DNA from: a virus
Virus record (IMG/VR): IMGVR_UViG_3300042540_001822
Location: 1-64,000 of that record
Reading direction: 5' to 3' (one strand)
DNA: 64,000 nucleotides
The notes under the pieces were generated by a model. That model did no database searches, was not told where the DNA came from, and saw nothing but the letters and a program-made list of their open reading frames with translations. Position 1 is the first letter of the stretch. The number at the start of each line of letters is the position of its first letter. Below, in pieces: positions 26,425 through 50,104 of the stretch. The position numbers and the translations under genes were made by a program.

Positions 26425-26526
26425 TTACGTATACTTATTTTAATCCATTGGAGATTAATCTACTTAATGAGAAATTACATTATATTCTTGGTGTATGGGT
26501 GAAGAAAAACTGGACAAATAAACGAG

Positions 26527-26736
26527 TTAGTGATAATTCATAGGTAAACAATCACAAGATGGTATATCATAAAATTTCTCACCAGTTTCTATATCTTCCA
26601 GTGTGTAATATTTTGTTCCTATTTTCCAAGGAGCATATGTTTTTAAAATTTTATGAACTTTTCCTCTATACTTAATCAATGAACTATCACTAACATCAGA
26701 TACATTCAATTCTGAGTTTTCGTTTTCTGATTTCAT
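26527..26736 (-). CDS. Hypothetical protein, 69 aa
   Basis: Asn/Ser-rich start, then KVHKILKTYAPWKIGTKYY and DIETGEKFYDIPSCDCLP; SH3-like. First unit of the minus-strand small-gene array, with its own host-type promoter upstream. Confidence 0.65.
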   Translation of the reverse strand: MKSENENSELNVSDVSDSSLIKYRGKVHKILKTYAPWKIGTKYYTLEDIETGEKFYDIPSCDCLPMNYH

Positions 26737-26773
26737 TTTATTCTATGGCTTTATGGTTTGGTGTTTGTTTTTA

Positions 26774-26805
26774 CAAATATACAAATAAGTTTCGGGATCT
26801 CCAAA
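26774..26805 (-). promoter_or_regulatory. Host-type promoter TTTG-N20-TATATTTG
   Basis: On the minus strand TTTG (26805-26802), exactly 20 nt, then TATATTTG (26781-26774), 38 nt before ATG 26736. This is the Bacteroidota primary-sigma pattern. Confidence 0.7.
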
Positions 26806-26829
26806 TCTTACTTACACAAATACATCATA

Positions 26830-26874
26830 TTCCTGGTGTATAAGTGAAAGAAAACTGGACAAATAAACGAGTTA
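26830..26874 (-). repeat. Cassette-boundary repeat (CTGGACAAATAAACGAGTTA)
   Basis: Plus-strand text TGGTGTATAAGTGAAAGAAAACTGG + ACAAATAAACGAGTTAT. It follows the stop of 26872 and precedes the promoter of 26736. Other copies: 26485-26530, 28594-28624, 31867-31921, 33321-33383, 34221-34281, 34938-35000, 36866-36898, 37689-37730, 38466-38524, 39015-39077. Confidence 0.85.
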
Positions 26875-27090
26875 TACAACATTTATAAAATCCTCTATCC
26901 GTTGATTAACTCGTTTTATTTTTTCGTGATTTTCGTCTTGATGGTAAATCAATTCTCTTCTACAATATTCTTCGTAATTATGACCACGTTCCGCAACCAT
27001 CCATTTTTCTTTCTTTTCAAGTCTTTCTGTGAGAATTGATTTGATTTGTTTTAAATCACTCAAACTCATTGTTTTAATATTAAGTTCCAT
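26872..27090 (-). CDS. Hypothetical helical protein, 72 aa
   Basis: ATG 27090 (MELNIKTMSLSDLKQIK); an extension to 27111 needs TTG inside the attC-like element. Coiled-coil-like, ends KIKRVNQRIEDFINVV. Unknown. Confidence 0.6.
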   Translation of the reverse strand: MELNIKTMSLSDLKQIKSILTERLEKKEKWMVAERGHNYEEYCRRELIYHQDENHEKIKRVNQRIEDFINVV

Positions 27091-27102
27091 AAAATAAACG
27101 TT

Positions 27103-27195
27103 GTATAACAAGGTATATACGAAATACCCTATTAAGGTTTATACTAAATTTTAAAGTTTGTTGTTAGGGTACTTCGTATATACCCAACCGTTATG
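27103..27195 (-). repeat. attC-like element A
   Basis: Ends read AAC (right, CATAAC) and GTT (left, GTTATAC) in minus orientation. Arms GGGTATATACGAAGTACCC and its partner pair over 17 bp with a few unpaired bases near the AAC end, and enclose a 36-nt variable loop. It starts right after the stop of 27198 and ends 12 nt before ATG 27090, the ORF-attC order of integron cassettes. Confidence 0.6.
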
Positions 27196-27197
27196 TT

Positions 27198-27425
27198 TCA
27201 TTTTAGACGAGCATACCATTTCAATCTATCATCATTACCAATTTCAACTAATTCAAATTTAACTTTACAGTTTTCTAATATTTTCCAAGGATGAAAATTA
27301 AAACTCAACGGGTCTATTGGTAATTCACCATTTCTATTACCTGTTAAATTTGAGTTATCGCATTTCACAACCCAATAAGGTGTTGTGTTGAAATTGGTTG
27401 ATTTAATTAATATTCCTATTTCCAT
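27198..27425 (-). CDS. Hypothetical protein, 75 aa
   Basis: MEIGILIKSTNFNTTPYWVVK and FNFHPWKILENCKVKFELVEIG: small beta-barrel-like protein. Single ORF of a cassette-like unit. Unknown. Confidence 0.65.
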   Translation of the reverse strand: MEIGILIKSTNFNTTPYWVVKCDNSNLTGNRNGELPIDPLSFNFHPWKILENCKVKFELVEIGNDDRLKWYARLK

Positions 27426-27468
27426 ATTTATTTAAGTTTAAAACGACATTTATCTGTAACCGTTATGT

Positions 27469-27690
27469 TCAAGTTTTTGAAACAGGACTAACCTCCACAA
27501 TTTCAATTTGGGAAGTTTTATTCAACAGTACCCTATTAGAATATTTAGAAATAATAAAATCTCTAATATCATCAACTGTTGAATTTTCGTCAATTCCATC
27601 TTTCTTCCAAAAAGTCATAGTGTAATTTTGATTATTTCTAAATCTATCACCACTTTTAACAGATACGTTTTTTAATTTAACTGATACCAT
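27469..27690 (-). CDS. Hypothetical protein, 73 aa
   Basis: MVSVKLKNVSVKSGDRFRNN, then FWKKDGIDENSTVDDIRDFI; beta-grasp-like size and pattern, but not recognised. Confidence 0.6.
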   Translation of the reverse strand: MVSVKLKNVSVKSGDRFRNNQNYTMTFWKKDGIDENSTVDDIRDFIISKYSNRVLLNKTSQIEIVEVSPVSKT

Positions 27691-27736
27691 ATTTTTTTAA
27701 TTTATAAAACAATAATTTAACTAAATAAAACAAAAA

Positions 27737-27970
27737 TTATGAGTTTTTCAGTTTTCCCCATCTTTTGTTAAATTCTTCATCTGTTTTAAGTTTTTCCAAA
27801 AATTCATCCTCTGAATAGTTTGAAGTTGTTGTTGTCTTAAATGGTAATTCAACCGGTAATTCTCTCACAACTTCCCATTTTCTTTGTTCTTCAGGATTCA
27901 TTTTTTCAAGTTCATCCATATATTGTCTCCATAATGGATTTTCATCTTCTGTATTTAATTTCCAACTCAT
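27737..27970 (-). CDS. Hypothetical acidic protein, 77 aa
   Basis: ENPLWRQYMDELEKMNPEEQ and EFLEKLKTDEEFNKRWGKLKNS. The C-terminal EFLxKLKTDxEFNKRWG pattern recurs in 35428-35619 and in many small Bacteroidota/phage proteins. Role unknown. Confidence 0.65.
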   Translation of the reverse strand: MSWKLNTEDENPLWRQYMDELEKMNPEEQRKWEVVRELPVELPFKTTTTSNYSEDEFLEKLKTDEEFNKRWGKLKNS

Positions 27971-28016
27971 AATTTTTTGTTTTTTATATTAATTTGTATA
28001 ATTTTTGTTTTACATA

Positions 28017-28072
28017 CTTATAACAAATGATAGACAACATTAAAACGATTGTTTATCATCGAACGTTATAAG
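28017..28072 (-). repeat. attC-like element B
   Basis: Perfectly mirrored ends CTTATAAC/GTTATAAG; stem ATGATAgACAAc with GTTTATCAT around ATTAAAAC. 56 bp. Related copies at 30316-30369 and 39384-39436. Confidence 0.6.
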
Positions 28073-28075
28073 AAA

Positions 28076-28246
28076 TTATTTTTTAATCACTATTCCATTA
28101 TCTTTACAAAATTTTTGATCAACAATCCATTTGTTTTTATCCCAATCCCAAACATACATTCCATATATTCTACCAGGATAAGTCATAGGTGGAATTTTTG
28201 TAAAAACCCCTTCTAATATTATTTTTTCTTCTTTCTTTTTCCCCAT
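28076..28246 (-). CDS. Hypothetical protein, 56 aa
   Basis: ATG 28246: MGKKKEEKIILEGVFTKIPP, then YGMYVWDWDKNKWIVDQKF. Follows element B immediately, as a cassette ORF. Unknown. Confidence 0.55.
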   Translation of the reverse strand: MGKKKEEKIILEGVFTKIPPMTYPGRIYGMYVWDWDKNKWIVDQKFCKDNGIVIKK

Positions 28247-28316
28247 TTGTGTATATTAAAAATAACTACTTATAACAAAGTGTAAATAAACACGCAAAAC
28301 ATTATGTGCAAGCCTA

Positions 28317-28490
28317 CTATTCCGCTTCGATATGATTATATATTAATTTCATTACCCAAGCATTTTCAAACTCATAGAACCCACAAGTCGAGCAAGCATC
28401 TTCTTCGGTATCATAGTAGATTATTTTACCTTCTTTATTTTTCATAAAGTCCATATTTCTAAGGTCTATGATTACATATTGGTCTTTCAT
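28317..28490 (-). CDS. Hypothetical protein, 57 aa
   Basis: ATG 28490: MKDQYVIIDLRNMDFMKNKE, then DACSTCGFYEFENAWV. One CxxC pair. Unknown; the ORF is supported by position and codon pattern. Confidence 0.55.
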   Translation of the reverse strand: MKDQYVIIDLRNMDFMKNKEGKIIYYDTEEDACSTCGFYEFENAWVMKLIYNHIEAE

Positions 28491-28637
28491 TTCGTTTTAA
28501 AATTAAATTTAATGATGATAAGCCGCCCAGCACATAAGAGCGGTTTGGCAAGGCTTGTTGGTTGGTTTTATGGGTTTAGGGTGTGGGGTCGGGGAAGGAA
28601 AACTGGACAAATAAACGATTTATGTGTAATAAAAAAA

Positions 28638-28922
28638 TTATTCAGCACTCACAAAATGACTTTTCTTCAATTCAGAAAAAGTTTCAAATCTTTTTTGTTT
28701 ATCGTCAATTGTTAAAAGATAGTAATACTGTTCACCATATTGAAAATGTGCCTTCTTTTCAATTTTAGCATTACCCTTAGTAAAGTTTCCTACTTTTTTA
28801 TGTTCATCTCCCGAAAATATAAAGTCCATATTAATTGTGTATTGATACTCGTCATTAAACCAGTAATACTTGTCAACATTTTTATCATCAAAAAAAGATT
28901 TGAATTTCTTAATTATACCCAT
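28638..28922 (-). CDS. Hypothetical protein, 94 aa
   Basis: MGIIKKFKSFFDDKNVDKYYW; beta-rich middle with aromatic residues (YQYTINMDFIFSGDE, YGEQYYYLLTIDDKQKRF). Unknown. Confidence 0.65.
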   Translation of the reverse strand: MGIIKKFKSFFDDKNVDKYYWFNDEYQYTINMDFIFSGDEHKKVGNFTKGNAKIEKKAHFQYGEQYYYLLTIDDKQKRFETFSELKKSHFVSAE

Positions 28923-28963
28923 TTTGTTGTTTTAATTTATTTTTTACATACACATAACAAGGT

Positions 28964-29164
28964 TTAGGTGTATATGTAAAATAAATCCAAGTTTCTATGT
29001 TTCACTCTACAAAACTTACCATCTTTAGTTTCAATTAAGAAACTAATATCACCTCTATCTAAGTTTATCTTTTCTCGAATGTATCCATCAACTAATGATG
29101 TTCCGAGATTGAAACTGATATGTGTCCCAACTTCTAATTCTTTGTTCATTTTACAATCAATCAT
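28964..29164 (-). CDS. SH3-like small protein, 66 aa
   Basis: ATG 29164 (MIDCKMNKELEVGTHIS) or 29149. GTHISFNLGTSLVDGYIREKI and FLIETKDGKFCRVKHRNLDLF look like a small beta barrel. Unknown. Confidence 0.6.
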   Translation of the reverse strand: MIDCKMNKELEVGTHISFNLGTSLVDGYIREKINLDRGDISFLIETKDGKFCRVKHRNLDLFYIYT

Positions 29165-29214
29165 GTGTATAAATTTTAAGTTACTAAATACAACAACAAA
29201 TATAAGAAATAAAA

Positions 29215-29559
29215 TTAAACGCCAAACCAAGAACCATTGTGTAGATAACACTGATTTATTACCTCACCAGTTTCAGTGTTTTTAATATCGTATCTTGGTT
29301 TATCCTCTGTCAGATAAATTTTCCTATCAAAATAACCTTTAGTGATTATTGAAATATTTTTAATAATATCATATCCCATGTTTTTGTATTCTGAAAAGGT
29401 AATATATCTTTCTTTGCCTATATTACCATCATAAACTAACATCAACGGTTCTTTTGAGTCAACCCATCCTGAAAATTTATCATGTTTGTTGATGATATTA
29501 AAAACATCCATTCCTTTTGTGGTTACTTTTTCACCTAAATTAAATTCTTTCATATTCAT
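29215..29559 (-). CDS. Hypothetical protein, 114 aa
   Basis: ATG 29559 (MNMKEFNLGEKVTTKGMDVF). KYITFSEYKNMGYDIIKNIS and C-terminal DIKNTETGEVINQCYLHNGSW. KOW/SH3-like N-terminus. Longer readings enter the attC-like element. Unknown. Confidence 0.6.
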   Translation of the reverse strand: MNMKEFNLGEKVTTKGMDVFNIINKHDKFSGWVDSKEPLMLVYDGNIGKERYITFSEYKNMGYDIIKNISIITKGYFDRKIYLTEDKPRYDIKNTETGEVINQCYLHNGSWFGV

Positions 29560-29582
29560 ATTTTTGTTTAATTTTACATTCA

Positions 29583-29637
29583 TACAACAAATGATAAAAA
29601 ACATTAAAACGAACACATATTCTTAACCGTTATAAGT
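29583..29637 (-). repeat. Hybrid attC-like element D
   Basis: In plus text the left part (ACAACAAATGATA...CATTAAAAC) equals elements B/E/K and the right part (GAACACATATTCT...GTTATAAG) equals element J. The arms no longer pair, so this is a recombinant of two element types, joined at ATTAAAACGA. Confidence 0.55.
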
Positions 29638-29641
29638 AATA

Positions 29642-29761
29642 TTATTTTTGTTCAAGTAATTTAATTAATTCATCATATTCTTGTTGATTTTCTTCTTTTA
29701 TTACTTTTAACATATAACCCATCGGTGTTAGGTATTCTTTCTTTTCTTTCTTCTTTTTCAT
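29642..29761 (-). CDS. Hypothetical protein, 39 aa
   Basis: ATG 29761: MKKKKEKKEYLTPMGYMLKV, ends YDELIKLLEQK. Lysine-rich helix. Short, but correctly placed between a boundary element and the next start. Confidence 0.4.
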   Translation of the reverse strand: MKKKKEKKEYLTPMGYMLKVIKEENQQEYDELIKLLEQK

Positions 29762-29794
29762 AATTTTAAATTTTTTAACTAAGTATAACAAAAA

Positions 29795-30277
29795 TTATTG
29801 TTCATCACTCTCAATAACTATATCTTCTGAATCTAAATTTTCAGAAACCAATTCATCAACAACTTGCTCTATTGTCTTTTTATATTCTTCCATCTGTTCT
29901 TTTTCATTAATGTAGTCAATAATCTCATTTAATTTATTTCTAAATTGCGAAAGTTTTTGACCAATTGTTTCTTCTTGAAAATTTGATTCTCTTGATGTTT
30001 TTAATCTTTCTATTTTTTTCATATTGTATAATTTTTGATACTCATCTACAATTAGTTTTATGTTGTATGTGTCTTTGCTAAACTCTGATTTATGAATATA
30101 CCAAGTCAAAAAATCAACTAACAATCCACTAACAACAGGTTCATTCAATTTAATAACCTCGCTTTCTAATATAATTTCAGCAATAGTTGTCATAGCAGCA
30201 TTTTCCTCTTTATTCCACATATCCATTCCATATCCTGTCTTTTCTATGTATTTCTCTATCAAGTAATCTGATGTCAT
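29795..30277 (-). CDS. Hypothetical helical protein, 160 aa
   Basis: MTSDYLIEKYIEKTGYGMDM, all-helical; C-terminus ELVSENLDSEDIVIESDEQ is acidic. Contains ETIGQKLSQFRNKLNEIIDY. No domain recognised. Confidence 0.7.
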   Translation of the reverse strand: MTSDYLIEKYIEKTGYGMDMWNKEENAAMTTIAEIILESEVIKLNEPVVSGLLVDFLTWYIHKSEFSKDTYNIKLIVDEYQKLYNMKKIERLKTSRESNFQEETIGQKLSQFRNKLNEIIDYINEKEQMEEYKKTIEQVVDELVSENLDSEDIVIESDEQ

Positions 30278-30315
30278 AATTCTTTTTTTAATTTGTAAAA
30301 CAATAATTTAACTAA

Positions 30316-30369
30316 ACCTAACAAATGATAAACAACATTAAAACGATTGTTTATCATCGGACGTTAGCG
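30316..30369 (-). repeat. attC-like element E
   Basis: CTAACAAATGATAAACAAC and GATTGTTTATCATCGGACGTTAG form a 12-bp stem around ATTAAAAC. Same type as element B. The GTTAG end overlaps the stop of 30364. Confidence 0.6.
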
Positions 30370-30648
30370 ACCATTAAAAGACCGCCACAATTCGACAAAC
30401 TTTTCACGTTTCATTTGCCTTAATTCTCTATTATGCGCATATTTTCTTTCGTGGTAAATTTCTATTTCACTACCACCTGTGAAGTAAACTGAATACGTTA
30501 ACCAGGAACTATCCCCGCCAACTTGACCTACTCTTTCAATTTTTCGTAAATCAATGGTGTCGCCCCCAATATCAACTAAAGGATTAACGGCTTCTAACAC
30601 ATTATTTGCATCAGTGGGGGTGTCGTTTTTCAAATTATCTTTCTGCAT
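30364..30648 (-). CDS. Hypothetical protein, 94 aa
   Basis: Asn/Asp-rich start, then DIGGDTIDLRKIERVGQVGG, LTYSVYFTGGSEIEIYHERKY and MKREKFVELWRSFN: PH-like small domain of the type IxLxxIxxVG...; common in Bacteroidota accessory DNA. Function unknown. Confidence 0.7.
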   Translation of the reverse strand: MQKDNLKNDTPTDANNVLEAVNPLVDIGGDTIDLRKIERVGQVGGDSSWLTYSVYFTGGSEIEIYHERKYAHNRELRQMKREKFVELWRSFNGR

Positions 30649-30721
30649 GTTATTAAAGTTTTGTGCTTCAATTTAAGAAAAAACTACATATATCTGTGAT
30701 CGTTAGCAGTAATACTACCAA

Positions 30722-31018
30722 TCAGTGCTGATTTTTCAAATAATTTGTTGTACATTCTATCCAACACTTTGCTTTATCCGTATTATCCATAAAATCAACT
30801 TTATGAACAAATAAACAAGTAAATTTTTCAGACCATCCCATTGGTAGCCAAAGAGTATTCATGTATCCTTCCAATAATTCCTTATTAGATTTTTCAAATT
30901 TAGTTTCATCTCTTTGTGATAGCCAATCCTCACACATTCTAACTATCGGTTGGAATTCTGGTATTCCAATCACATTTACTATTTTATTCAATATTTTTTC
31001 AGATTCAAATTGATTCAT
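30722..31018 (-). CDS. Hypothetical protein, 98 aa
   Basis: ATG 31018 (MNQFESEKILNKIVNVIGIP); the longer frame starts at TTG in a boundary element. Helical, with LWLPMGWSEKFTCLFVHKVDF. Unknown. Confidence 0.65.
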   Translation of the reverse strand: MNQFESEKILNKIVNVIGIPEFQPIVRMCEDWLSQRDETKFEKSNKELLEGYMNTLWLPMGWSEKFTCLFVHKVDFMDNTDKAKCWIECTTNYLKNQH

Positions 31019-31061
31019 ATTTTTAAGTTTTGTGGTAAGGTACTTCGCATATGCCCAGCCG

Positions 31062-31280
31062 TTATGCAAAAGGTAGCGGACAACCGTTCGGTATTGTATC
31101 AGCGTCTACAATTTCAACATCCAGTTTTTCACACCAGTGTTTACCCCATCTGTATTCATGATTACCATCATCGTGAATATGATGAGGACATTGCCAACAA
31201 CACTCAACAACCACTACCCTTCGCATAACATTATGTTGCTGCAATGTGGGCTGACCGTTTTCATTTTTACTGTTGTTCAT
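31062..31280 (-). CDS. Cys/His-rich small protein, 72 aa
   Basis: MRRVVVVECCWQCPHHIHDD, then EYRWGKHWCEKLDVEIVDADTIPNGCPLP: probable metal-binding knuckle of a small family with V.C..C...C.......IP..CPL. Role unknown. Confidence 0.7.
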   Translation of the reverse strand: MNNSKNENGQPTLQQHNVMRRVVVVECCWQCPHHIHDDGNHEYRWGKHWCEKLDVEIVDADTIPNGCPLPFA

Positions 31281-31321
31281 CTATGTTTCTTGTTTTGTTC
31301 TTTTTACTCAAATTCGTAAAA

Positions 31322-31504
31322 TTACTGTTTTGTGTTTTCTAATTTATTCTCTAATTCCTCCACTTTGTTTCTCCAATATCTCGTAACCGTATATTGTGCT
31401 GAACGAATATAATCGTATGGATGAACATATCCACCCCATCTTAATTTATATTCTTCTTCTTCTAGAGTTTTCTTAGCCTCTTTCAATTCTTCCTCTATGT
31501 TCAT
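31322..31504 (-). CDS. Hypothetical helical prot., 60 aa
   Basis: MNIEEELKEAKKTLEEEEYK and RYWRNKVEELENKLENTKQ: two helices, coiled-coil-like. 7 bp from the next gene. Unknown. Confidence 0.6.
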   Translation of the reverse strand: MNIEEELKEAKKTLEEEEYKLRWGGYVHPYDYIRSAQYTVTRYWRNKVEELENKLENTKQ

Positions 31505-31511
31505 ATATTCT

Positions 31512-31787
31512 TTAATTTGTATTTTTTAATTTATTCAAAGTAATCACGTTATTTAGTTGCACTTCTTTTAATGTGATTTTTCGTGTATCTTTAAAGTTTT
31601 CGATTACTTCATCCAAATTTTTACTCATGTGTTTATCAAAATCACTTTCAGTTGGGTGGTCTAGATTAGCCTCAAACTCTACCTCAAAACCGTGTTCACT
31701 TAAAAATTTCTTTAATAAGTAAGTTAAACGAGATTTACCAGATGCAACTTGCCCTGATACTGTAATAATTAAATCTTTCTTTTCCAT
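31512..31787 (-). CDS. Small P-loop protein, 91 aa
   Basis: LIITVSGQVASGKSRLTYLL carries a Walker A motif (GxxxSGKS) at residues 12-19, as in adenylylsulfate-kinase-like and other nucleotide kinases; the following FLSEHGFEVEFEANLDHPTE fits a kinase core but the protein is too short for a full enzyme. A truncated kinase or a small NTP-binding regulator. Confidence 0.75.
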   Translation of the reverse strand: MEKKDLIITVSGQVASGKSRLTYLLKKFLSEHGFEVEFEANLDHPTESDFDKHMSKNLDEVIENFKDTRKITLKEVQLNNVITLNKLKNTN

Positions 31788-31818
31788 TTTATTTTTTTAT
31801 AGTTTAGTGTTTGTTTTA

Positions 31819-31850
31819 CAAATATACGAATAAGTTTTCAGATTTCCAAA
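31819..31850 (-). promoter_or_regulatory. Host-type promoter TTTG-N20-TATATTTG
   Basis: Minus strand: TTTG (31850-31847), 20 nt, TATATTTG (31826-31819), 32 nt before ATG 31787. Part of a repeated ~110-bp block. Confidence 0.7.
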
Positions 31851-31928
31851 TTTTATCCACACAAATACATCATATTTCTGGTGTATAAGTGAAGAAAAAC
31901 TGGACAAATAAACGAGTTATAAACAATT

Positions 31929-32162
31929 TTAAGAAACATGTTCCCTTGTATTGAGTTCCGTTTTAATTAAACTCAAAAAATCTTTATGTTCATTGTATTT
32001 TTGCTCCATATCTGATTGTGTTGCTCGTGCTTCCCATATCATTTCACCACATCCACAACTGCACCAATACCCGACACCGTAAAATCTTCTACGTTCTGCT
32101 TTGTAAAATCGTAATAGATTTTTTGTATTTAATTTTCTTAATTCTTCGATTGACTTTCCCAT
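31929..32162 (-). CDS. Cys-containing small phage-type protein, 77 aa
   Basis: MGKSIEELRKLNTKNLLRFY, KAERRRFYGVGYWCSCGCGE, LSLIKTELNTREHVS. The order LKAERxxFY...C.C...KxELNxREH is a frequent small family in phages and Bacteroidota. Unknown function. Confidence 0.7.
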   Translation of the reverse strand: MGKSIEELRKLNTKNLLRFYKAERRRFYGVGYWCSCGCGEMIWEARATQSDMEQKYNEHKDFLSLIKTELNTREHVS

Positions 32163-32174
32163 AATAAAAACTGT

Positions 32175-32269
32175 TTATAACAAGGTGTATATGTAATTTT
32201 TTTTTACAAAGATATGAATAATTTTTGAAATTTCCAAATAAAAAACTACATATACACCCAACCGTTAGG
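32175..32269 (-). repeat. attC-like element F with embedded promoter
   Basis: Arms GGTGTATATGTA/TACATATACACC between TATAAC and GTTAGG ends. The variable loop holds, on the minus strand, TTTG-N20-TATCTTTG, so a promoter is built into the element. Confidence 0.6.
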
Positions 32270-32270
32270 T

Positions 32271-32456
32271 TCAATCATTAATTTGTTTTGATTTTTTTAA
32301 TTCTTCTTCTAACTCTTTTAATTGAATTTCCCAATGTTTCTTAAATTTAATCCAAAATTCATTTCCATTAGGTCCTTCCACCTCAATCTTTTCTCCACAA
32401 AATTTTATTGATGTTTTACAATGTTCAATTTTATCCTCTGTTGTTAAGTAATTCAT
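32271..32456 (-). CDS. Hypothetical protein, 61 aa
   Basis: MNYLTTEDKIEHCKTSIKFC, ends LKELEEELKKSKQIND. Helical. Single ORF of a unit closed by element F. Confidence 0.6.
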   Translation of the reverse strand: MNYLTTEDKIEHCKTSIKFCGEKIEVEGPNGNEFWIKFKKHWEIQLKELEEELKKSKQIND

Positions 32457-32516
32457 ATTTCTATTTTTTTTAATTTGTAAAACAATAATTTAACTAAACC
32501 TAACATATAAACGAAA

Positions 32517-32533
32517 ACTCGTTTATTTGTCCA
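32517..32533 (+). repeat. Inverted copy of the boundary repeat
   Basis: ACTCGTTTATTTGTCCA, the reverse of CTGGACAAATAAACGAGT, and paired with ATAAACGA just upstream. The only copy in this orientation. Confidence 0.6.
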
Positions 32534-32546
32534 CTCTTCTAATTAT

Positions 32547-32969
32547 TTAATAACCAAAATCTCCATACAAATCTTGAAAAGATAAATCATTCATAGCACC
32601 TAAATCATTCCAATGTTCAAGATTATTATTCTTTTTTGATTTGTGTTTTGGTGTTGCCCTTTCACTTCTCGATGGCGGTAATGAATTATAAGCATCATCC
32701 CAATATTTTTGCCAAAAATTCAAATCTTCTTTTGATAAGTCTCTTAATTTGATGGTACATTTACTCAAACTTGTTAGAGTTTCTTTTTCTTGTATAGTTG
32801 CTTCGTTTTCATGTAGTTTCCCAACTAAATTTTGAAGCCACCATCCTTTAATTTGATAGTAAGGATGTTTTAGTCCTCTGTTGTCTAATACAGATTTTGG
32901 TATCCAACCATTACCTTCTAGTTTATATGCTTTCTCTGTTTCTTGAATAATATTTAATTTTACTAACAT
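32547..32969 (-). CDS. Hypothetical protein, 140 aa
   Basis: MLVKLNIIQETEKAYKLEGN, GWIPKSVLDNRGLKHPYYQI; the first 45 residues form a domain seen in other small phage proteins that replace a Lys-rich strand with WIPKS. The rest is basic and Asn-rich. Unknown. Confidence 0.7.
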   Translation of the reverse strand: MLVKLNIIQETEKAYKLEGNGWIPKSVLDNRGLKHPYYQIKGWWLQNLVGKLHENEATIQEKETLTSLSKCTIKLRDLSKEDLNFWQKYWDDAYNSLPPSRSERATPKHKSKKNNNLEHWNDLGAMNDLSFQDLYGDFGY

Positions 32970-33069
32970 AGTTTAATGTTTAAATTTATTAATTGCCTCT
33001 CTAAAATTTTGTATTTCAATTTAAGTTTAGTTAAACACTACGTTTATACCCAACCGTTAGCGGTAATTG

Positions 33070-33261
33070 TTAAAGTTCTTCTTTTTCCATTTTACCACAC
33101 CTTACACAATATCGTGTTTGGATTGTGCCAACATAAGGATATTGTTGCCCTTGTTTAACTAATAACATATCTATATTTTCTTGTTTCCATTTAGTCCACT
33201 TGTGTCTCCAAAAACAACTACCGTTAACAACGGTTTGGCTAGATTCAGGGGTTGCTTCCAT
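33070..33261 (-). CDS. Zinc-ribbon-like small protein, 63 aa
   Basis: GSCFWRHKWTKWKQENIDML and TRYCVRCGKMEKEEL: C.W.HKW.KW...(x)30..C..CGK, a small zinc-binding family of Bacteroidota phages. Confidence 0.7.
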   Translation of the reverse strand: MEATPESSQTVVNGSCFWRHKWTKWKQENIDMLLVKQGQQYPYVGTIQTRYCVRCGKMEKEEL

Positions 33262-33281
33262 AGGTTTAAAGTTTGTTTTTA

Positions 33282-33313
33282 CAAATATACGAATAAGTTT
33301 TCAGATTTCCAAA
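33282..33313 (-). promoter_or_regulatory. Host-type promoter TTTG-N20-TATATTTG
   Basis: Same block as at 31819, 21 nt before ATG 33261. Confidence 0.7.
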
Positions 33314-33390
33314 TTTTATCCACACAAATACATCATATTTCTAGTGTATAAGTGAAGAAAAACTGGACAAATAAACGAGTTATCGGAAAT

Positions 33391-33693
33391 TCATTTTTCT
33401 TCCGACTCCTGCTCCGAAGAAGGTTGTTGCTTTTCAAATTCTTCTCTGATTTTAGTTAATCTTGAAAACTCTGCTACCCAAGCATCTAATGTCATTCCAT
33501 TTACTGAAATGTTTTCAAGCCTGTCCCTACCATCACCATCCCAATCAATTACCACTTCTCTACTACTACCCATTTGCCCAAGACTTCGTAGTTTTGAAAA
33601 AAATTCTAATAGTGGCTTTACTGCATCATCTGAGCAGGTAAATGAAATGACATTTTGAAAAGCAATGTTTGGTGTTTTAAATTTTTGTTCCAT
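33391..33693 (-). CDS. Hypothetical protein, 100 aa
   Basis: VIDWDGDGRDRLENISVNGM is reminiscent of the acidic DxDGDG loop of calcium-binding or nuclease-like small domains; C-terminal helix EFSRLTKIREEFEKQ and Glu-rich tail. Unknown. Confidence 0.65.
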   Translation of the reverse strand: MEQKFKTPNIAFQNVISFTCSDDAVKPLLEFFSKLRSLGQMGSSREVVIDWDGDGRDRLENISVNGMTLDAWVAEFSRLTKIREEFEKQQPSSEQESEEK

Positions 33694-33730
33694 TTTAAAT
33701 TAAGTTTATTACCCACGAAAAATGAACTAT

Positions 33731-33828
33731 CCGATAACACGGGTTTGGCAAAATGCCACCAAATAGTTTGTGCCAAGATTGAAAGTTCGTGCAAGGTGGC
33801 ACTTCGCCAAGCCCGAAGCCGTTATGTG
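33731..33828 (-). repeat. attC-like element G (longest stem)
   Basis: Arms GGGTTTGGCAAAATGCCACC (33741-33760) and GGTGGCACTTCGCCAAGCCC (33795-33814) pair over about 20 bp with internal mismatches; ends GATAAC and GTTATG. A truncated relative is at 46609-46634. Confidence 0.65.
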
Positions 33829-33834
33829 TAATTG

Positions 33835-34152
33835 CTACATTCCGTACATTTGAAGAACTATATTCTTTGAACGACATAATTCAGCCCAAGCTTCTTGACA
33901 GTAATTTCTACCGTGTAATGCGTTATTAAATTCGTGACACAATTCAGTTACCAATGATTCAATGTCTTGTGTTAAATCAATTTGTGTTTCGTATTGGTAT
34001 CTTCCACGCAATATTCCATCCTCGTATAAGTGCAATTCACTTTTCGCTCTTGTTTCTAAATCTACATAGAATTGGTCTTTTTCGCTATTGTAGTGCATTG
34101 ATGTAGAAATTCCTTTCTTTGCCAACGCTTTCATTATGTCTTGTATTTCCAT
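33835..34152 (-). CDS. Hypothetical protein, 105 aa
   Basis: MEIQDIMKALAKKGISTSMH, SEKDQFYVDLETRAKSELHL and HEFNNALHGRNYCQEAWAEL; alpha/beta, in length and pattern like small accessory proteins of Bacteroidota. An overlapping ORF (33695-33877) through element G is rejected. Confidence 0.65.
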   Translation of the reverse strand: MEIQDIMKALAKKGISTSMHYNSEKDQFYVDLETRAKSELHLYEDGILRGRYQYETQIDLTQDIESLVTELCHEFNNALHGRNYCQEAWAELCRSKNIVLQMYGM

Positions 34153-34178
34153 TTTATTTTTGTTTACTGTTTGTTTTA

Positions 34179-34210
34179 CAAATATACAAATAAATTTTTA
34201 GATTTACAAA
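34179..34210 (-). promoter_or_regulatory. Host-type promoter TTTG-N20-TATATTTG
   Basis: TTTG (34210-34207), 20 nt, TATATTTG (34186-34179); 27 nt before ATG 34152. Note TTTGTAAATC variation in the spacer. Confidence 0.7.
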
Positions 34211-34287
34211 TTTTACCCCCCACAAATACATCATATTCCTGGTGTATAAGTGAAGGGAAACTGGACAAATAAACGAGTTATGTGCCA

Positions 34288-34488
34288 TTAAGAACCATAA
34301 CCGTTTTTAACCATTTTTTGACGAATTTGTTCAGCTATTTCTAACTTTATCTTTTCGTCTTGGTCATATCTTCCAACAAGGAAATTAAATGATTTTAACA
34401 TTGCAGTCCTTAACTCAAGTTGGTCATCATTTGGATATATTTTCCACATATATTCAACAAATTCGGCTTCGGTTTTACATAATTTCAT
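34288..34488 (-). CDS. Hypothetical protein, 66 aa
   Basis: MKLCKTEAEFVEYMWKIYPN then helical; ends AEQIRQKMVKNGYGS. Unit closed by element H. Confidence 0.6.
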   Translation of the reverse strand: MKLCKTEAEFVEYMWKIYPNDDQLELRTAMLKSFNFLVGRYDQDEKIKLEIAEQIRQKMVKNGYGS

Positions 34489-34505
34489 GCTTCAAAAATT
34501 AACGG

Positions 34506-34596
34506 CACATAACAAGGTATATGTGAAATACCTTATAAAGTTTCTACTAATTTTTAAGTTCGTCTTTAGGTACTTCACATATACCCAACTGTTATA
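34506..34596 (-). repeat. attC-like element H
   Basis: Arms GGTATATGTGAAATACC (34516-34532) and GGTACTTCACATATACC (34569-34585), ends CATAAC and GTTATA. Close relative of element A. Confidence 0.6.
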
Positions 34597-34597
34597 T

Positions 34598-34921
34598 TCA
34601 ATTTTCAATTTGTTTTGGAATTTCTACCCATTTATTATCAACCAATTTATATCGTGTTTCATAATCAAATGAAGTCTCGGAAGCATCATTATTAAAATAT
34701 AAAATATTTTCCATATCCCAACTACTTCTATAAAAGGTGTGTTCGTTATTTTCACAATGAATTACAGTGTTTCCGTCCATAACTATCATCGCATTTATAT
34801 GTGTTGAAAATAACTTACCCCCACATATCGGACATTTATGTTCATATTCATTTATATCACACCAATAATCACCCATTCTTTTTTGTTGGTATCTAAACCA
34901 TTCTAATTTTTCTTTTCCCAT
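34598..34921 (-). CDS. Zinc-knuckle protein, 107 aa
   Basis: YEHKCPICGGKLFSTHINAM and HCENNEHTFYRSSW give CxxC plus C/H ligands of a zinc ribbon; C-terminal beta part. Typical of small phage proteins; unknown role. Confidence 0.7.
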   Translation of the reverse strand: MGKEKLEWFRYQQKRMGDYWCDINEYEHKCPICGGKLFSTHINAMIVMDGNTVIHCENNEHTFYRSSWDMENILYFNNDASETSFDYETRYKLVDNKWVEIPKQIEN

Positions 34922-35008
34922 AATTTTATATTTTACTTACACAAATATATCATATTCTTGGTGTATGTGTGAAGGAAACCTGGACAAATAAACGAGTTAG
35001 CAGAAATA

Positions 35009-35278
35009 CTACTGAGCGTTACTAACAGGAATTGCATCTGCATCTAAATTATGGTCGTGTCTTTGCAGTTCAGAAACTAAATAGTTATCTCTAACAGACT
35101 TGTGAAATGGCTCAACATAACCTTCTTTTGCAAAATACCATTCGCCTTGATAGTTAAACTCAAAGCCACTATCTCGCATACAAATTGACATAGTTTCACC
35201 ACTTGCAGTTTTTAAAGTTAAACCGCTAAAAACTTCTTCTAATTGGATACCTAAATCCTCTGTTACTGTTACTTTCAT
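35009..35278 (-). CDS. Hypothetical protein, 89 aa
   Basis: MKVTVTEDLGIQLEEVFSGL, GETMSICMRDSGFEFNYQGE, then a helical end HNLDADAIPVSNAQ. Unknown. Confidence 0.65.
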   Translation of the reverse strand: MKVTVTEDLGIQLEEVFSGLTLKTASGETMSICMRDSGFEFNYQGEWYFAKEGYVEPFHKSVRDNYLVSELQRHDHNLDADAIPVSNAQ

Positions 35279-35327
35279 TTTGTTATTTATTTAAGTTAAA
35301 AATTCGTTTTAATTACACCGTACTTCT

Positions 35328-35413
35328 GCTAACAGCACATAAGCAAAAGCCCAAATCCAACCGCATAATGCCACCGCTATTTGTGCCTTCGCTTATCTGC
35401 AAACCGTTATAAG
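35328..35413 (-). repeat. attC-like element I
   Basis: Arms GCACATAAGC and GCTTATCTGC, ends GCTAAC and GTTATAAG, 40-nt variable middle. Confidence 0.5.
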
Positions 35414-35427
35414 TAATGAAACAAAAA

Positions 35428-35619
35428 TTATGAGTTTTCATTTTTCTTACTCCCATCTTCATTCCACTTCCTAAGAAATTCTTGATTTTCAGGTTTTGAA
35501 AGTTCTTCTTTCATCGCATCATCAAATTTCTTTTGCATTTCAAGATTTTGTTCCTCTGTCAGTGTATTCAAATCCTGAAAATCTTCTTTTGTTAATTTAC
35601 TTTTCATATTGTAAATCAT
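35428..35619 (-). CDS. Hypothetical acidic helical protein, 63 aa
   Basis: KLTKEDFQDLNTLTEEQNLE, EELSKPENQEFLRKWNEDGS; related in style to 27737-27970 (EFL..KW). ATG 35619 or 35607. Confidence 0.6.
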   Translation of the reverse strand: MIYNMKSKLTKEDFQDLNTLTEEQNLEMQKKFDDAMKEELSKPENQEFLRKWNEDGSKKNENS

Positions 35620-35696
35620 ATTGTAAAATTTTTGTTTTAAGTTTTGTGGTAAGGTACTTCACATATACCCAACCGTTATATTCAATATCAAAAATT

Positions 35697-35993
35697 TTAT
35701 GAGTTTTTATATTTTTCAACCCACTCATCATAAGATAGTCTATTTTCTACCAAATATCTTTTAGCAACCTTAGCGTTCCATTCTTTCATTTCTTCAAAAG
35801 TAACTCCTTTTATATACTTACTACAATTCAAATCAAATTTGTAATCTAACCCACCTTCCCACATCACTTCATAAAACACACTATCTTTATCGTGTCCAAT
35901 CGTTCCATTTATCTTATCAGACTGCATATCAACAAAAGCATCAGTTACTCTTTTCATATATGCTTCGTATTCTTTTTGAAATTCTTTTTTCAT
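35697..35993 (-). CDS. Hypothetical protein, 98 aa
   Basis: MKKEFQKEYEAYMKRVTDAF helix, then DKDSVFYEVMWEGGLDYKFD. Ends SYDEWVEKYKNS. Unknown. Confidence 0.65.
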   Translation of the reverse strand: MKKEFQKEYEAYMKRVTDAFVDMQSDKINGTIGHDKDSVFYEVMWEGGLDYKFDLNCSKYIKGVTFEEMKEWNAKVAKRYLVENRLSYDEWVEKYKNS

Positions 35994-36035
35994 TTGTATA
36001 AAATTTTTGATACTAAATATAACAAAGAATATGTG

Positions 36036-36617
36036 TCATTGCCTTTCGTTCCAAACTGATTCTGCTTCATCAATAGTGTCAGACCACCAATCAAGTGAAT
36101 GTCCTTTTTGTTTACAATTCACCCTGTAATATTCTGTCATACTATCTCCAAAAGTCTTGTTTTCAATTTCCGTATCCGAACCACAAAAAGGACAAGGCAA
36201 CGCACACACAACAGCAGGTATATTCAATTGTGGGTTCTGTGGTTTATCCGAATTTTGTGTTTCTCTTGATGTGATTTCATTTAGTTCTTTGTATAATCCA
36301 TTATGCCAAGTTTTCATTTTATCTAAACAATCACTAATAACATCATCAATGTTTGTTTTATAAATTGAAACATCTTGTAATTCACCTTCTTTATATTCTT
36401 TTGTTGAAGGTAACATTTCAACAATATTATAAAACAAATCAATTGGTTTATTTTCCCAATTAAAAAAATTACCATCAAACTCACCATAACTTATTCTAAA
36501 TCCGCCACTAAGCAATCCGTGTGCGTATAATTTATAATTAACACCATCTACCATTAACATTTTTGGTAAATCTTTTTCACATCTTAACACGTGGTCTTTT
36601 TCTTCTTGTAATTCCAT
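36036..36617 (-). CDS. Lar-type zinc-ribbon protein fused to an N-terminal domain, 193 aa
   Basis: The last 60 residues, LPCPFCGSDTEIENKTF...RVNCKQKGHSLDWWSDTIDEAESVWNERQ, match the restriction-alleviation (Lar-like) zinc-ribbon family: CPFCG, second Cys/His pair, and EA...WN.R end. Residues 1-130 (LMVDGVNYKLYAHGLLSGGF, FFNWENKPIDLFYNIVEML) are a separate unknown domain. Lar of Rac prophage modulates type I restriction; family members in phages are mostly uncharacterised. Confidence 0.8.
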   Translation of the reverse strand: MELQEEKDHVLRCEKDLPKMLMVDGVNYKLYAHGLLSGGFRISYGEFDGNFFNWENKPIDLFYNIVEMLPSTKEYKEGELQDVSIYKTNIDDVISDCLDKMKTWHNGLYKELNEITSRETQNSDKPQNPQLNIPAVVCALPCPFCGSDTEIENKTFGDSMTEYYRVNCKQKGHSLDWWSDTIDEAESVWNERQ

Positions 36618-36618
36618 T

Positions 36619-36849
36619 TTATTTAGTTTTCAACATTTCTTTATAGGCATTACCTGTGCTAAATTGTTGTTCAAATGTTGGATTTGGATAATGTTCATTT
36701 TGAATCCAATTATCGTGATGTTCAAATGTTCTCCAACCATTATCACGTAATTCTTTTACCATATTCATTAACCCACTTCCAACTTTCATATCAGAAGGAA
36801 TTTCAATACCACCATCAGGTGTTACTTTTACAATAGTTTCTAATTTCAT
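36619..36849 (-). CDS. Hypothetical protein, 76 aa
   Basis: MKLETIVKVTPDGGIEIPSD and NGWRTFEHHDNWIQNEHYPN. 1 bp upstream of 36036 gene, the only two-gene cassette-like unit in this stretch. Unknown. Confidence 0.65.
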   Translation of the reverse strand: MKLETIVKVTPDGGIEIPSDMKVGSGLMNMVKELRDNGWRTFEHHDNWIQNEHYPNPTFEQQFSTGNAYKEMLKTK

Positions 36850-36910
36850 AATTTATTTTTTTATAAATGAAGGAAAACTGGACAAATAAACGAGTTATAT
36901 TCAATAAAAA

Positions 36911-37090
36911 TTAATTTATGAGTTTATCTACATAATAGTTATCACCACCATAACCGTATTTAATTCTTGCTTGTTCAGCTTCTTCTTTTGTGTTATATGG
37001 TGCTAATATCACACCATTTTTCTCGTTTTGATGTGCTGGTTCTTTTTCATAAACCGCATAATACTCTTTTTTAAGTGCTTCGTATTTCAT
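36911..37090 (-). CDS. Hypothetical protein, 59 aa
   Basis: ATG 37090: MKYEALKKEYYAVYEKEPAH, ILAPYNTKEEAEQARIKYGY. Small alpha/beta, too short for usual ORF cut-offs but well placed. Confidence 0.6.
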   Translation of the reverse strand: MKYEALKKEYYAVYEKEPAHQNEKNGVILAPYNTKEEAEQARIKYGYGGDNYYVDKLIN

Positions 37091-37112
37091 ATGTATAAAT
37101 TAATTTTTACTA

Positions 37113-37167
37113 AATATAACAAAGAATATGTGTCATTAAAACGAACACATATTCTCAATCGTTAGCG
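37113..37167 (-). repeat. attC-like element J
   Basis: TATAAC...AGAATATGTGT / ACACATATTCT...GTTAGCG; 11-bp stem around CATTAAAACGA. A left half only is at 36013-36037. Confidence 0.6.
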
Positions 37168-37395
37168 GTAATTTTTACGAACATATCGTTCTACATATTT
37201 CCCGTAATCTTCCATCATTTCCCACCAAGTATCATTACTAATTAAGTTATCGGACAAATAATCTAATTTTGAACGACCATAAACTTTTACCACCCAACCA
37301 ATCGGGTCTAAAAAACTACCGCTAACACCAGATAAAAGCATTTTATTACTGCTAATATCTAACTTCTCTGCTTGTTTTTTACTTTTGTTTTTCAT
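37162..37395 (-). CDS. Hypothetical protein, 77 aa
   Basis: Lys-rich start, KMLLSGVSGSFLDPIGWVVK and WWEMMEDYGKYVERYVRKNY. Stop lies in element J. Unknown. Confidence 0.65.
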   Translation of the reverse strand: MKNKSKKQAEKLDISSNKMLLSGVSGSFLDPIGWVVKVYGRSKLDYLSDNLISNDTWWEMMEDYGKYVERYVRKNYR

Positions 37396-37421
37396 ATTAA
37401 ATTATTGTTTATCATCAGTCG

Positions 37422-37667
37422 TTATAAAACATTTCCGAGAACGTTTCTTAGTTCGTCCTTATCTACGAATGAATTAAGAACAAAAATTTCTTTTCCTGTG
37501 TGATTTTTTTGAACAACATTATCGTTTATCCAAATATGTGCATTATAAATCTCAATTTCAGGTATTATTGTATATCTTGTAGGATATTTACCATCAGTCG
37601 TTTCGGTAATCAATATATTATGTTCACCAAAGAAATTTTTGTAAATCAGTTTTAATTTTGTTTTCAT
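37422..37667 (-). CDS. Hypothetical protein, 81 aa
   Basis: MKTKLKLIYKNFFGEHNILI, RYTIIPEIEIYNAHIWINDN: beta-rich. Unknown. Confidence 0.6.
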   Translation of the reverse strand: MKTKLKLIYKNFFGEHNILITETTDGKYPTRYTIIPEIEIYNAHIWINDNVVQKNHTGKEIFVLNSFVDKDELRNVLGNVL

Positions 37668-37736
37668 TTTATTTAGTTTTTAACATTTCGGTGTATGGAT
37701 GAAGAAAAACTGGACAAATAAACGAGTTAGCAACAA

Positions 37737-37946
37737 TTAGTGCTGACCATACCTCAAATGAATGTTATCATAATCAGTGTCATAATAAGCACCGTTTTCT
37801 TGCTTATGTTTCTTTATACATTGGTATAAATATATTTCGGTTAATCCAACCAAAGAACAATCACATTTATCCCAAACATTATACAGTTGTTTAATTTCGT
37901 CATCATTCAAATCTAATAAACTTTCTATTGTGTTCTTTTCATTCAT
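37737..37946 (-). CDS. Hypothetical protein, 69 aa
   Basis: ESLLDLNDDEIKQLYNVWDK, CDCSLVGLTEIYLYQCIKKH; helical. Unknown. Confidence 0.6.
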   Translation of the reverse strand: MNEKNTIESLLDLNDDEIKQLYNVWDKCDCSLVGLTEIYLYQCIKKHKQENGAYYDTDYDNIHLRYGQH

Positions 37947-37975
37947 AAATCAACGTTTTATATCAAGGTATAAAT

Positions 37976-38155
37976 TCAATTAAATATTTTTACTATCTCT
38001 CTAACCTTATCAATCAAAAAATTAGTTTCTTCAATATGATGTTGTTCCAATCTTTTATACCTTTCTTCCCAAGTCAATGTATCATCATCCTTGTATTTTT
38101 TGATTTTAATCCACTTGTATGTTTCAAGTATTTCTTTCTTTTCTAATTCTTCCAT
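37976..38155 (-). CDS. Hypothetical helical protein, 59 aa
   Basis: ATG 38155: MEELEKKEILETYKWIKIKK, LTWEERYKRLEQHHIEETNF. Coiled-coil-like. Unknown. Confidence 0.55.
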   Translation of the reverse strand: MEELEKKEILETYKWIKIKKYKDDDTLTWEERYKRLEQHHIEETNFLIDKVREIVKIFN

Positions 38156-38190
38156 AATAAAATATTTAATTAGATTTATACTAAGGAATA

Positions 38191-38409
38191 TTATTTTTGT
38201 TTTGAGAATGTTGATATAACACTATCAATAACTTCTTCTTTACTACCAATATCCCACCAATCTGGATTTTGTTTTAGTTTATACTCTGGATTATCGTTAT
38301 GATAAGTTTCTACCAACCCATCAACTAATCCATTCCACGAAATATTGTTCTGTTCTAAAACTGAAACAATCTCCGCATATTTAATCATTTTTTCTACTAT
38401 TTCTTCCAT
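38191..38409 (-). CDS. Hypothetical protein, 72 aa
   Basis: MEEIVEKMIKYAEIVSVLEQ, NNISWNGLVDGLVETYHNDN. Helical; unknown. Confidence 0.6.
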   Translation of the reverse strand: MEEIVEKMIKYAEIVSVLEQNNISWNGLVDGLVETYHNDNPEYKLKQNPDWWDIGSKEEVIDSVISTFSKQK

Positions 38410-38549
38410 AATTTATATTTTTTAATAAGTTTCATATAACAAGGTGTATGGGAAATTTTTTATCAAATATACATCATATTCCTGATGTATGGATGAAGGA
38501 AACCTGGACAAATAAACGAGTTATAGCCAATACTACCGAAGTACTTCGA

Positions 38550-38978
38550 TTAAGCATTTAGTGGCTCATCAAAGATTACATTCCAACTATCTAATGGTTG
38601 CCAACCGCCACCCATAGTCATTACTTCTAAATCTGATGATGGTATATTTTTGAACGTAATATATTCGTCACCTTTATTATTTACTATTCTTGGTGATAGT
38701 TGAAAATCATCAGTCAATTTTGTTCTCAAAACACACATTTTACTAATCCCACCTTTTGATTTAGCATAGTATTTAGCATAATCTAAATCGTTTGTAAAAC
38801 TAATTGATGGTTGTTCTTCACCAGTTCTATTTGGTTTCATATATCCATCGTACTGTATATTCATTGCTTGTCCTTTACCTGTTCCATGATAAATATAATC
38901 ATCTTGTTTTATATCTTCATTTACAAATTGATTGAATGATTTAACCTCATCAATCATATCTCGTATTTCTTTACTCAT
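38550..38978 (-). CDS. Predicted ADP-ribosyltransferase-like protein with CTS-like leader, 142 aa
   Basis: Residues 1-22 MSKEIRDMIDEVKSFNQFVNED form a leader. The body reads DYIYHGTGKGQAMNIQYDGYM (YHGT, NAD-binding first strand), SISFTNDLDYAKYYAKSKGG (Tyr-rich helix) and DEYITFKNIPSSDLEV (glutamate of the third motif), the H-Y-E order of small ADP-ribosyltransferases. T4 packages its ART Alt behind a capsid-targeting leader; this protein could be an injected host-modifying enzyme. Homology and activity are inferred from motifs only. Confidence 0.7.
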   Translation of the reverse strand: MSKEIRDMIDEVKSFNQFVNEDIKQDDYIYHGTGKGQAMNIQYDGYMKPNRTGEEQPSISFTNDLDYAKYYAKSKGGISKMCVLRTKLTDDFQLSPRIVNNKGDEYITFKNIPSSDLEVMTMGGGWQPLDSWNVIFDEPLNA

Positions 38979-39091
38979 TTTGTTTATGTTTATATAAAAA
39001 TATTTCTATGTTTCTACAAAAATACATCATATTCCTGGTGTATAAGTGAAAGAAAACTGGACAAATAAACGAGTTATAGATAATAAAATAT

Positions 39092-39340
39092 CTATTTAAT
39101 CTTAGTTCCTTTTGGAACAAATTTCTTCAAATCTTTTTTCAATTGTTTATCTACTGATTTAGAGTATTCTTCATCATTTTCAATCATCCAAGTATGAAGT
39201 TGAAGAAATTCTTTTTCTGATAGAGTTTCACCATCTAATTTACGTTGAATAAGTTTAGATATTTTACTATCTATAAAATCAGATATATTCAAGTTTTCTT
39301 GATGTTCGTTGAAACTTTGTATGTGTTTATTACCTTTCAT
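39092..39340 (-). CDS. Leader-like small protein, 82 aa
   Basis: MKGNKHIQSFNEHQENLNISDF resembles the leader; the rest is a helical SKLIQRKLDGETLSEKEFLQ core and lysine-rich end. Preceded by an AGTATATATTAA box. Confidence 0.65.
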   Translation of the reverse strand: MKGNKHIQSFNEHQENLNISDFIDSKISKLIQRKLDGETLSEKEFLQLHTWMIENDEEYSKSVDKQLKKDLKKFVPKGTKIK

Positions 39341-39357
39341 CTTCGTAAATTGTTTTT

Positions 39358-39370
39358 AGTATATATTAAA
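39358..39370 (-). promoter_or_regulatory. Putative late promoter (AATATATAC box)
   Basis: TTTAATATATACT on the minus strand, 18 nt before ATG 39340. Confidence 0.4.
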
Positions 39371-39383
39371 AAGAAAACCTAAA

Positions 39384-39436
39384 TACAACAAATGAGAAAC
39401 AACATTAAAACGATTGTTTATCACACGACGTTGGCA
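39384..39436 (-). repeat. attC-like element K
   Basis: ACAACAAATGAGAAACAAC / GATTGTTTATCACACGACGTTGG around ATTAAAAC. Same type as elements B and E; overlaps the end of 39421. Confidence 0.5.
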
Positions 39437-40309: not shown

Positions 40310-40434
40310 CAGAACTAAATGTTTTGAAGAAACTTTATGGGCAATGCTAATAATCAGATGTCTTAACAAAATTATACATTTAACATTCTACTTCATTTAA
40401 ATCCGATATAACTCGATTTACTCTGCCCTACTTG

Positions 40435-45948: not shown

Positions 45949-46021
45949 ATTATCAAATTTTGTCTGTTAATTAAAAGAGCAACTGCTCATATCTGCAAAC
46001 CGTTTTAGCTAATAAAATTTA

Positions 46022-50098: not shown

Positions 50099-50104
50099 AT
50101 TTGT

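Follow-up and report, generated by a model that had tools for sequence, protein, structure and literature searches.

A probable cassette array of an integron-like system in a large phage, with patchless recombinases in its relatives

In integron theory, recombination at a folded hairpin is tied to extrahelical bases (EHBs) and to the I2 helix of the integrase that accommodates them. Such bases are common on the R''-L'' arm of known attC sites (PMC2727003) and are accommodated by the integrase (PMC4792948), and the two ends of an integron cassette pair with each other, commonly over 9-11 nt (PMC2727003). Escudero et al. 2016 (PMC4792948) speculated on a viral origin of integrons; the only similar case there is CTXphi, which has no recombinase of its own, no I2-like domain and no EHBs. 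Here we analysed bases 1-64000 (the window) of the 219,475-bp virus record IMGVR_UViG_3300042540_001822, in which a row of small genes is interspersed with attC-like elements. We conclude that this row is very probably a cassette array and belongs to an integron-like system found in large phages, whose bottom-strand hairpins would most likely recombine at G|TT.

The array contains about 45 minus-strand open reading frames (ORFs), most of them single, and its G+C content is 29% versus 36% in the remaining window. A scan for the pattern YAAC-stem-GTTR retrieved 10 elements from the 13.3-kb array versus 0-2 from each of five shuffles. A covariance model (R1), built from 35 elements that all derive from other phages and show compensatory changes at 16 of 17 stem pairs, identified eight elements with E<1e-3 in the 219-kb record, all on the plus strand: six in the array, where they span about 10 kb (E values from 6e-17 to 7e-6), and two elsewhere. 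The rest of the record yielded no further match at this threshold except one array element rescored far lower on the minus strand. Folding as single-stranded DNA (ssDNA) placed seven of the eight tested elements well beyond shuffles (z -3.4 to -5.8). Together with the end complementarity described below, these results substantiate the first-pass annotation, which had described, from the letters alone, attC-like elements around single small genes and had named an attC covariance search as the check. Among the nine sites it listed, R1 recovered those at 27103, 32175, 33731, 34506, 35328 and 37113; the hairpin at 30316, despite a good fold, was not among the R1 matches, whereas the sites at 28017 (z -1.4) and 39384 proved weak or degenerate.

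In the window, the bases preceding AAC match the complement of the bases following the nearest preceding GTT at 73 of 105 positions versus 46 by chance (0 of 20000 random draws, p<5e-5). At the 27103 element, for instance, R'' is complementary over 10 nt to the front of its own cassette (GTTATACAAC at 26871 versus GTTGTATAAC ending at 27109). Across 247 cassettes with type-A elements, drawn from 111 viral stretches plus the window and locus L009, the mean complementary run was 4.95 bases versus 1.94+-0.07 after shuffling; pairing across one and the same element in this set was 1.95, which equals chance. The complementarity therefore lies inside the cassette and not inside the element, as integron cassettes require. 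End complementarity used alone, with the stem ignored, retrieved 419 elements versus 22 in shuffles; 378 of the 419 have strong arms. Imperfect palindromes that recur between genes could also be REP/RAYT-like or other scattered transposable palindromes, but we regard this origin as practically negligible, given that the stems diverge widely in sequence with compensatory changes, that each gene has one element, and that the end complementarity uses gene-flanking bases rather than the palindrome.

Between phages, sequence identity stops at CCGTT|, with the cassette boundary at G|TT. Pairs of near-identical elements shared the AAC-side flank and differed in the GTT-side flank in 89 cases, with no case of the reverse, and a wider breakpoint test at GTT gave 65 versus 2. 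Because identity breaks at GTT in this one-sided manner, the hairpin moves with the cassette on its AAC side. The candidate that attC moves with the downstream cassette was ruled out by the 89:0 breaks. Related phages thus differ exactly at GTT, a comparison that the first-pass annotation had itself proposed as a check; by contrast, the proposal that the ORF-attC order is that of integron cassettes had to be abandoned, since the gene reads away from its attC (89 versus 0 pairs). In recombinase-bearing phage loci, 180 ORFs start beside their attC and read toward the GTT side, versus 4 that do not. Phage cassettes have a median length of about 300 bp. Several window cassettes are matched at 91-92% in recombinase-bearing phages, namely 36622-36868 (with L165-L167), 36894-37129 (L189), 37960-38181 (L170) and 38527-38923 (L016/L191); the cassette at 36895..37161 is 91.5% identical to one in the recombinase-bearing record that holds L189 and starts at the same GTT. 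The ORFs of shared cassettes show a third-codon-position bias, indicating purifying selection.

As had been noted for the window, no integrase gene was found there, and neither a recombinase gene or remnant nor an attI motif was detected in any part of the 219-kb record. Of the 49 viral and phage records tested, 16 have a tyrosine recombinase match that exceeds the Pfam cut-off, and elements lie just upstream of the recombinase start in all 15 records with an intact gene. Members of the family are encoded by at least 217 viral contigs, and their catalytic residues are invariant. Over 79 loci, 243 elements occur in 335 kb on the 5' side of the recombinase versus 1 in 432 kb on the 3' side, and of the 63 loci with enough sequence, 59 contain one or more elements. 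In about 30 loci, a TATATAATA|GTTA-like motif, a candidate attI analogue, marks the front of the first cassette, 51-73 bp away from the start of the recombinase gene. Several recombinase-bearing records also encode a terminase (G002, G013, G018, G041). Among isolated phages, the closest recombinase, from Cellulophaga phage Ingeline, has 43% identity, and no elements were found within 3 kb of that gene. In a 464-kb phage (record G010, 12145-16202; L143/L145), the recombinase gene is in two pieces with a GIY-YIG-like ORF (MKICGIYKIVSPSGRIYIGQSIDIKRR...) between them.

These one-sided patterns bear on the alternative that the elements are mobile promoter/stem-loop modules, comparable to T4-type PeSLs, or terminators that provide homology for ordinary recombination, with incidental AAC/GTT ends. 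The window record appears to be a T4-like phage; as is the case for large members of that group, it has large ORFs, located elsewhere in the record, that match topoisomerase type II, ribonucleotide reductase and a DNA-repair exonuclease. T4 PeSL cassettes consist of an early promoter and a stem-loop between small genes; in the window, some spacers contain promoter-like sites. Bacteroidota-type promoter-like sites occur six times on the gene strand of the array versus none on the opposite strand, and a TTTG-N20-TAnnTTTG promoter-like site at 32238 lies inside the loop of the element at 32175-32270. Chimeric elements, together with attC bodies that have been swapped, point to homologous exchange as well. 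We nevertheless consider this alternative quite unlikely, as it leaves unexplained the complementarity within cassettes but not within elements, the 89:0 breaks at GTT, and the one-sided recombinase linkage with its attI-like motif.

The phage recombinases differ from canonical IntI. Their matches to TIGR02249 were split in two pieces and reached 157-163 bits in the four tested versus a cut-off of 265, and the insert region between two conserved motifs measures 49 residues versus 96 in IntI. Judged by sequence, the phage recombinase lacks the insert of ~47 residues known as the integron patch; the patch-bearing recombinase that had been expected was absent from the record, and the enzyme of the relatives is patchless. 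The two best structural matches of the predicted fold, XerA (Z 19.4) and Vibrio IntI4 (Z 18.6), are tied. In a tree of 94 sequences, IntI formed one clade (100/100) and Xer another, and the phage enzymes formed a clade (82/94) inside a patchless clade that holds Bacteroidota chromosomal and plasmid enzymes. The TnpF beside tet(X3) on plasmid pHH1107 (FJ012881, L335) also groups in the patchless clade, and no attC-like element was found in that 6.7-kb stretch.

The sites differ as well. No left-arm bulge was present in 303 of 378 phage elements, whereas 26 of 27 canonical elements in the comparison sample have 1-4. The commonest stem mismatch is A on the left versus C on the right, equivalent to a T.G wobble on the opposite strand, and of 250 non-redundant elements, 219 fold more stably on the bottom strand (p 3e-36). 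Site and enzyme thus differ together, which is a correlation and not proof of contact.

It is very unlikely that these are ordinary bacterial cassettes that the phage took up from chromosomal integrons of its host and that host IntI moves. Canonical IntI is admittedly common, occurring in 84 of 296 genomes of a bacterial comparison sample drawn from the phylum of a Crocinitomicaceae genome, and IntI1 can use attC sites of virulent phages (Qi et al. 2023, PMC9892861). However, the type-A element occurs in 111 viral versus 5 bacterial-genome stretches, and R1 matches patchless arrays, whereas canonical IntI loci yielded a single weak match; the lack of EHBs, the inverted ORFs, the tiny cassettes and the phage-specific recombinase clade also argue against it. 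The first-pass suggestion of capture from, or use of, host integron sites is contradicted by the same 111:5 distribution and by the 217 viral contigs with a recombinase of their own.

Compared with canonical integrons (IntI, attI, attC; TIGR02249), the phage loci have in common a recombinase gene located next to attI and the array; AAC...GTT sites whose arms are inverted, with a variable middle and spacers of 2-3 and 5-6 nt; cassettes that are bounded at G|TT and have self-complementary ends of about 10 nt (published range 9-11 nt, PMC2727003); and an R''-to-R' direction that points away from the recombinase. They differ in a recombinase without the insert and of another clade, in attC sites mostly without EHBs, and in inverted ORFs, whereas canonical ORFs read from the GTT side to attC. 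Patchless Bacteroidota chromosomal and plasmid integrases (G067, G335, G308, G110; Chryseobacterium plasmid NZ_CP041688) share the recombinase clade, bulge-free attC sites, the A.C mismatch and end complementarity, but their arrays lie 3' of the recombinase, their cassettes measure about 0.5-1.9 kb and their ORFs follow the canonical direction 21:1. The chromosomal loci in this comparison come from the genome sample drawn as the phylum of a Crocinitomicaceae genome. On the Chryseobacterium plasmid (L332, 7743-11000), cassette-like genes and two attC-like sites (10144 and 10860) come after the patchless integrase.

Qi et al. 2023 (PMC9892861) described phage CALINs (attC clusters with no integrase) and IntI integrons, and thus attC arrays in phages; these were identified by means of canonical attC/IntI models, and the available part of that paper mentions neither a recombinase family specific to phages nor inverted ORFs nor sites free of bulges. 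R1 detected elements in Polaribacter phage P12002L (E 3e-4), where phage-type bulge-free elements at 38032-38093 and 38876-38939 (L336) surround DNA methyltransferase genes. These may or may not be the attC sites that Qi et al. tested with IntI1. In reverse integrons (Treponema denticola and others; PMC6557892), the integrase gene and cassette genes are likewise transcribed one way, but in the phages the ORF itself is reversed with respect to both its own attC and attI. CTXphi-type XerCD integration (PMC4792948) similarly involves a phage, a hairpin site without EHBs and a recombinase without the I2 domain, but CTXphi encodes neither recombinase nor cassette array.

In the integron-like reading that we favour, a cassette is laid out as TT-gene-AAC-hairpin-G, its gene reading from the hairpin side to the GTT side and, in some cases, probably transcribed from its own Bacteroidota-type promoter-like site. 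Complete members combine a phage-encoded Xer/IntI-like tyrosine recombinase without the insert, the attI-like TATATAATA|GTTA site beside it, and an array. In vivo, the bottom strand of attC would fold as single-stranded DNA into a hairpin in which the front and back of a cassette pair. Strand exchange at G|TT, catalysed by the recombinase between this attC and either attI or a second attC, would then insert or excise a single cassette. The choice of strand would depend on the G.T wobble of the bottom versus the A.C mismatch of the top strand and on the 2-nt and 5-nt spacers rather than on EHBs. Because the window record lacks a recombinase and yet carries cassettes 91-92% like those of recombinase-bearing phages, the enzyme was probably provided in trans by a co-infecting phage, or else part of the record is missing; the window array would probably be a CALIN-like stock mobilised in trans. 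Promoter type and relatives suggest that the host is probably a member of the Bacteroidota.

Several observations weigh against this interpretation. Clean pairs differing by the gain or loss of one cassette numbered 0 among 548 cassettes in 416 families, and no circular cassette was found. The absence of a recombinase from the window record and its many half-element sites would also fit a relic. Some cassettes have swapped attC bodies, which simple G|TT exchange leaves unexplained; viral records are moreover redundant, so that not every counted pair or locus is independent. The swap is seen at L189, where 4186-3951 and window 36894-37129 represent one cassette with the same ends and an attC body that differs after TAACAA; attC bodies can be exchanged between cassettes.

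Coordinates of the array features are collected in Table 1. At other sites, the GTT half alone is kept (six further array sites) or the element is chimeric, and the array is therefore partly worn. The GGACAAATAAACGA|GTTA ends at 26859, 31904, 33367, 34265, 34984 and 36882 stand directly before cassettes with complete elements and may be insertion sites of the window phage. The GGACAAATAAACGAGTTA right end occurs in 14 copies in the record (genome 68969, 69802 and 70341 plus the window array) and in 25 viral stretches with differing left halves; no recombinase was found in the 14 tested records that carry it. In the cassette after the 28016..28070 hairpin, the front at 28065 and R'' at 28274 agree at 6 of 7 positions. 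Just past the array, tandem gacttcaccatagactctgccctag units at 40410-40670 give way to an unusual stretch rich in C/G runs that extends to about 41170. The Rfam search matched tRNAs and no other RNA family; four of its tRNA matches (87-132 bases), on the minus strand at 50001-54436, were not reported by ARAGORN; these tRNAs have insertions or long arms. Among sequenced phages, nucleotide similarity was limited to fragments in three uncultured huge phages.

Table 1. Cassettes, attC-like elements and related features of the record (window positions unless marked as genome).
Feature	Position	Strand	Details
Cassette TT...G, minus-strand ORF, ends in the 27103 element	26872..27190	-	Ends GTTATACAAC / GTTGTATAAC
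Cassette; ORF 31929-32162 (77 aa); element 32175-32270	31917..32264	-	Ends complementary over 10 nt
Cassette; ORF 33391-33693 (100 aa); element 33732-33827	33380..33821	-	Ends complementary over 9 nt
Cassette; ORF 34288-34488 (66 aa); element 34507-34597	34278..34591	-	Ends complementary over 10 nt
Cassette; ORF 35009-35278 (89 aa); element 35327-35412	34997..35406	-	Ends complementary over 10 nt
Cassette; ORF 36911-37090 (59 aa); element 37114-37167	36895..37161	-	Counterpart in L189-holding record
Complete attC-like element	27103..27196	+	R'' AAC at 27107, R' GTT at 27190; R1 E 6e-17; ssDNA fold z -4.9
attC-like element	32175-32270	+	R1 E 3e-12
attC-like element	33732-33827	+	R1 E 4e-10
attC-like element	34507-34597	+	R1 E 3e-12
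attC-like element	35327-35412	+	R1 E 6e-6
attC-like element	37114-37167	+	R1 E 7e-6
Short attC-like hairpin, 54 nt	30316..30369	+	ssDNA fold z -4.7; homologous hairpins in other viral loci
Short attC-like hairpin, arm partly degraded	28016..28070	+	Fold z -1.4
Single attC-like element beyond the array, with degraded R'	45879..46008	+	R1 E 5e-8
Second outlying element	genome 67084-67213	+	R1 E 4e-8
Chimeric element: left half attC, right half GGACAAATAAACGAGTTA	38434..38526	+	Sequence; R1 E 0.86
GGACAAATAAACGA|GTTA right ends, 11 copies	26514..39080	+	Replace attC right half
ACAAATAAACGA starts	26514, 26859, 28607, 31904, 33367, 34265, 34984, 36882, 37714, 38508, 39061	+	Same 11 copies
Array ORF	36036..36617	-	Weak similarity to Lar restriction alleviation proteins: PHROG 599 E 2.6e-6; Pfam PF14354 23 bits, under cut-off 28.6

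More broadly, it is reasonably likely that a second integron-like branch exists in Bacteroidota and their phages, with patchless recombinases, mostly bulge-free attC sites and strand choice by A.C/G.T, in which phages carry a complete, self-encoded gene-capture platform of inverted, self-promoted micro-cassettes. Within the open-access literature, we found no earlier account that describes a patchless integron, a result that does not prove novelty in print. A phage-encoded patchless system with largely bulge-free attC sites would make the question of a viral origin of integrons directly testable. Our findings further suggest that a large cassette reservoir has been missed by tools that require canonical IntI and attC models and, if true, would account for the way in which large phages build up and exchange their long rows of tiny genes.

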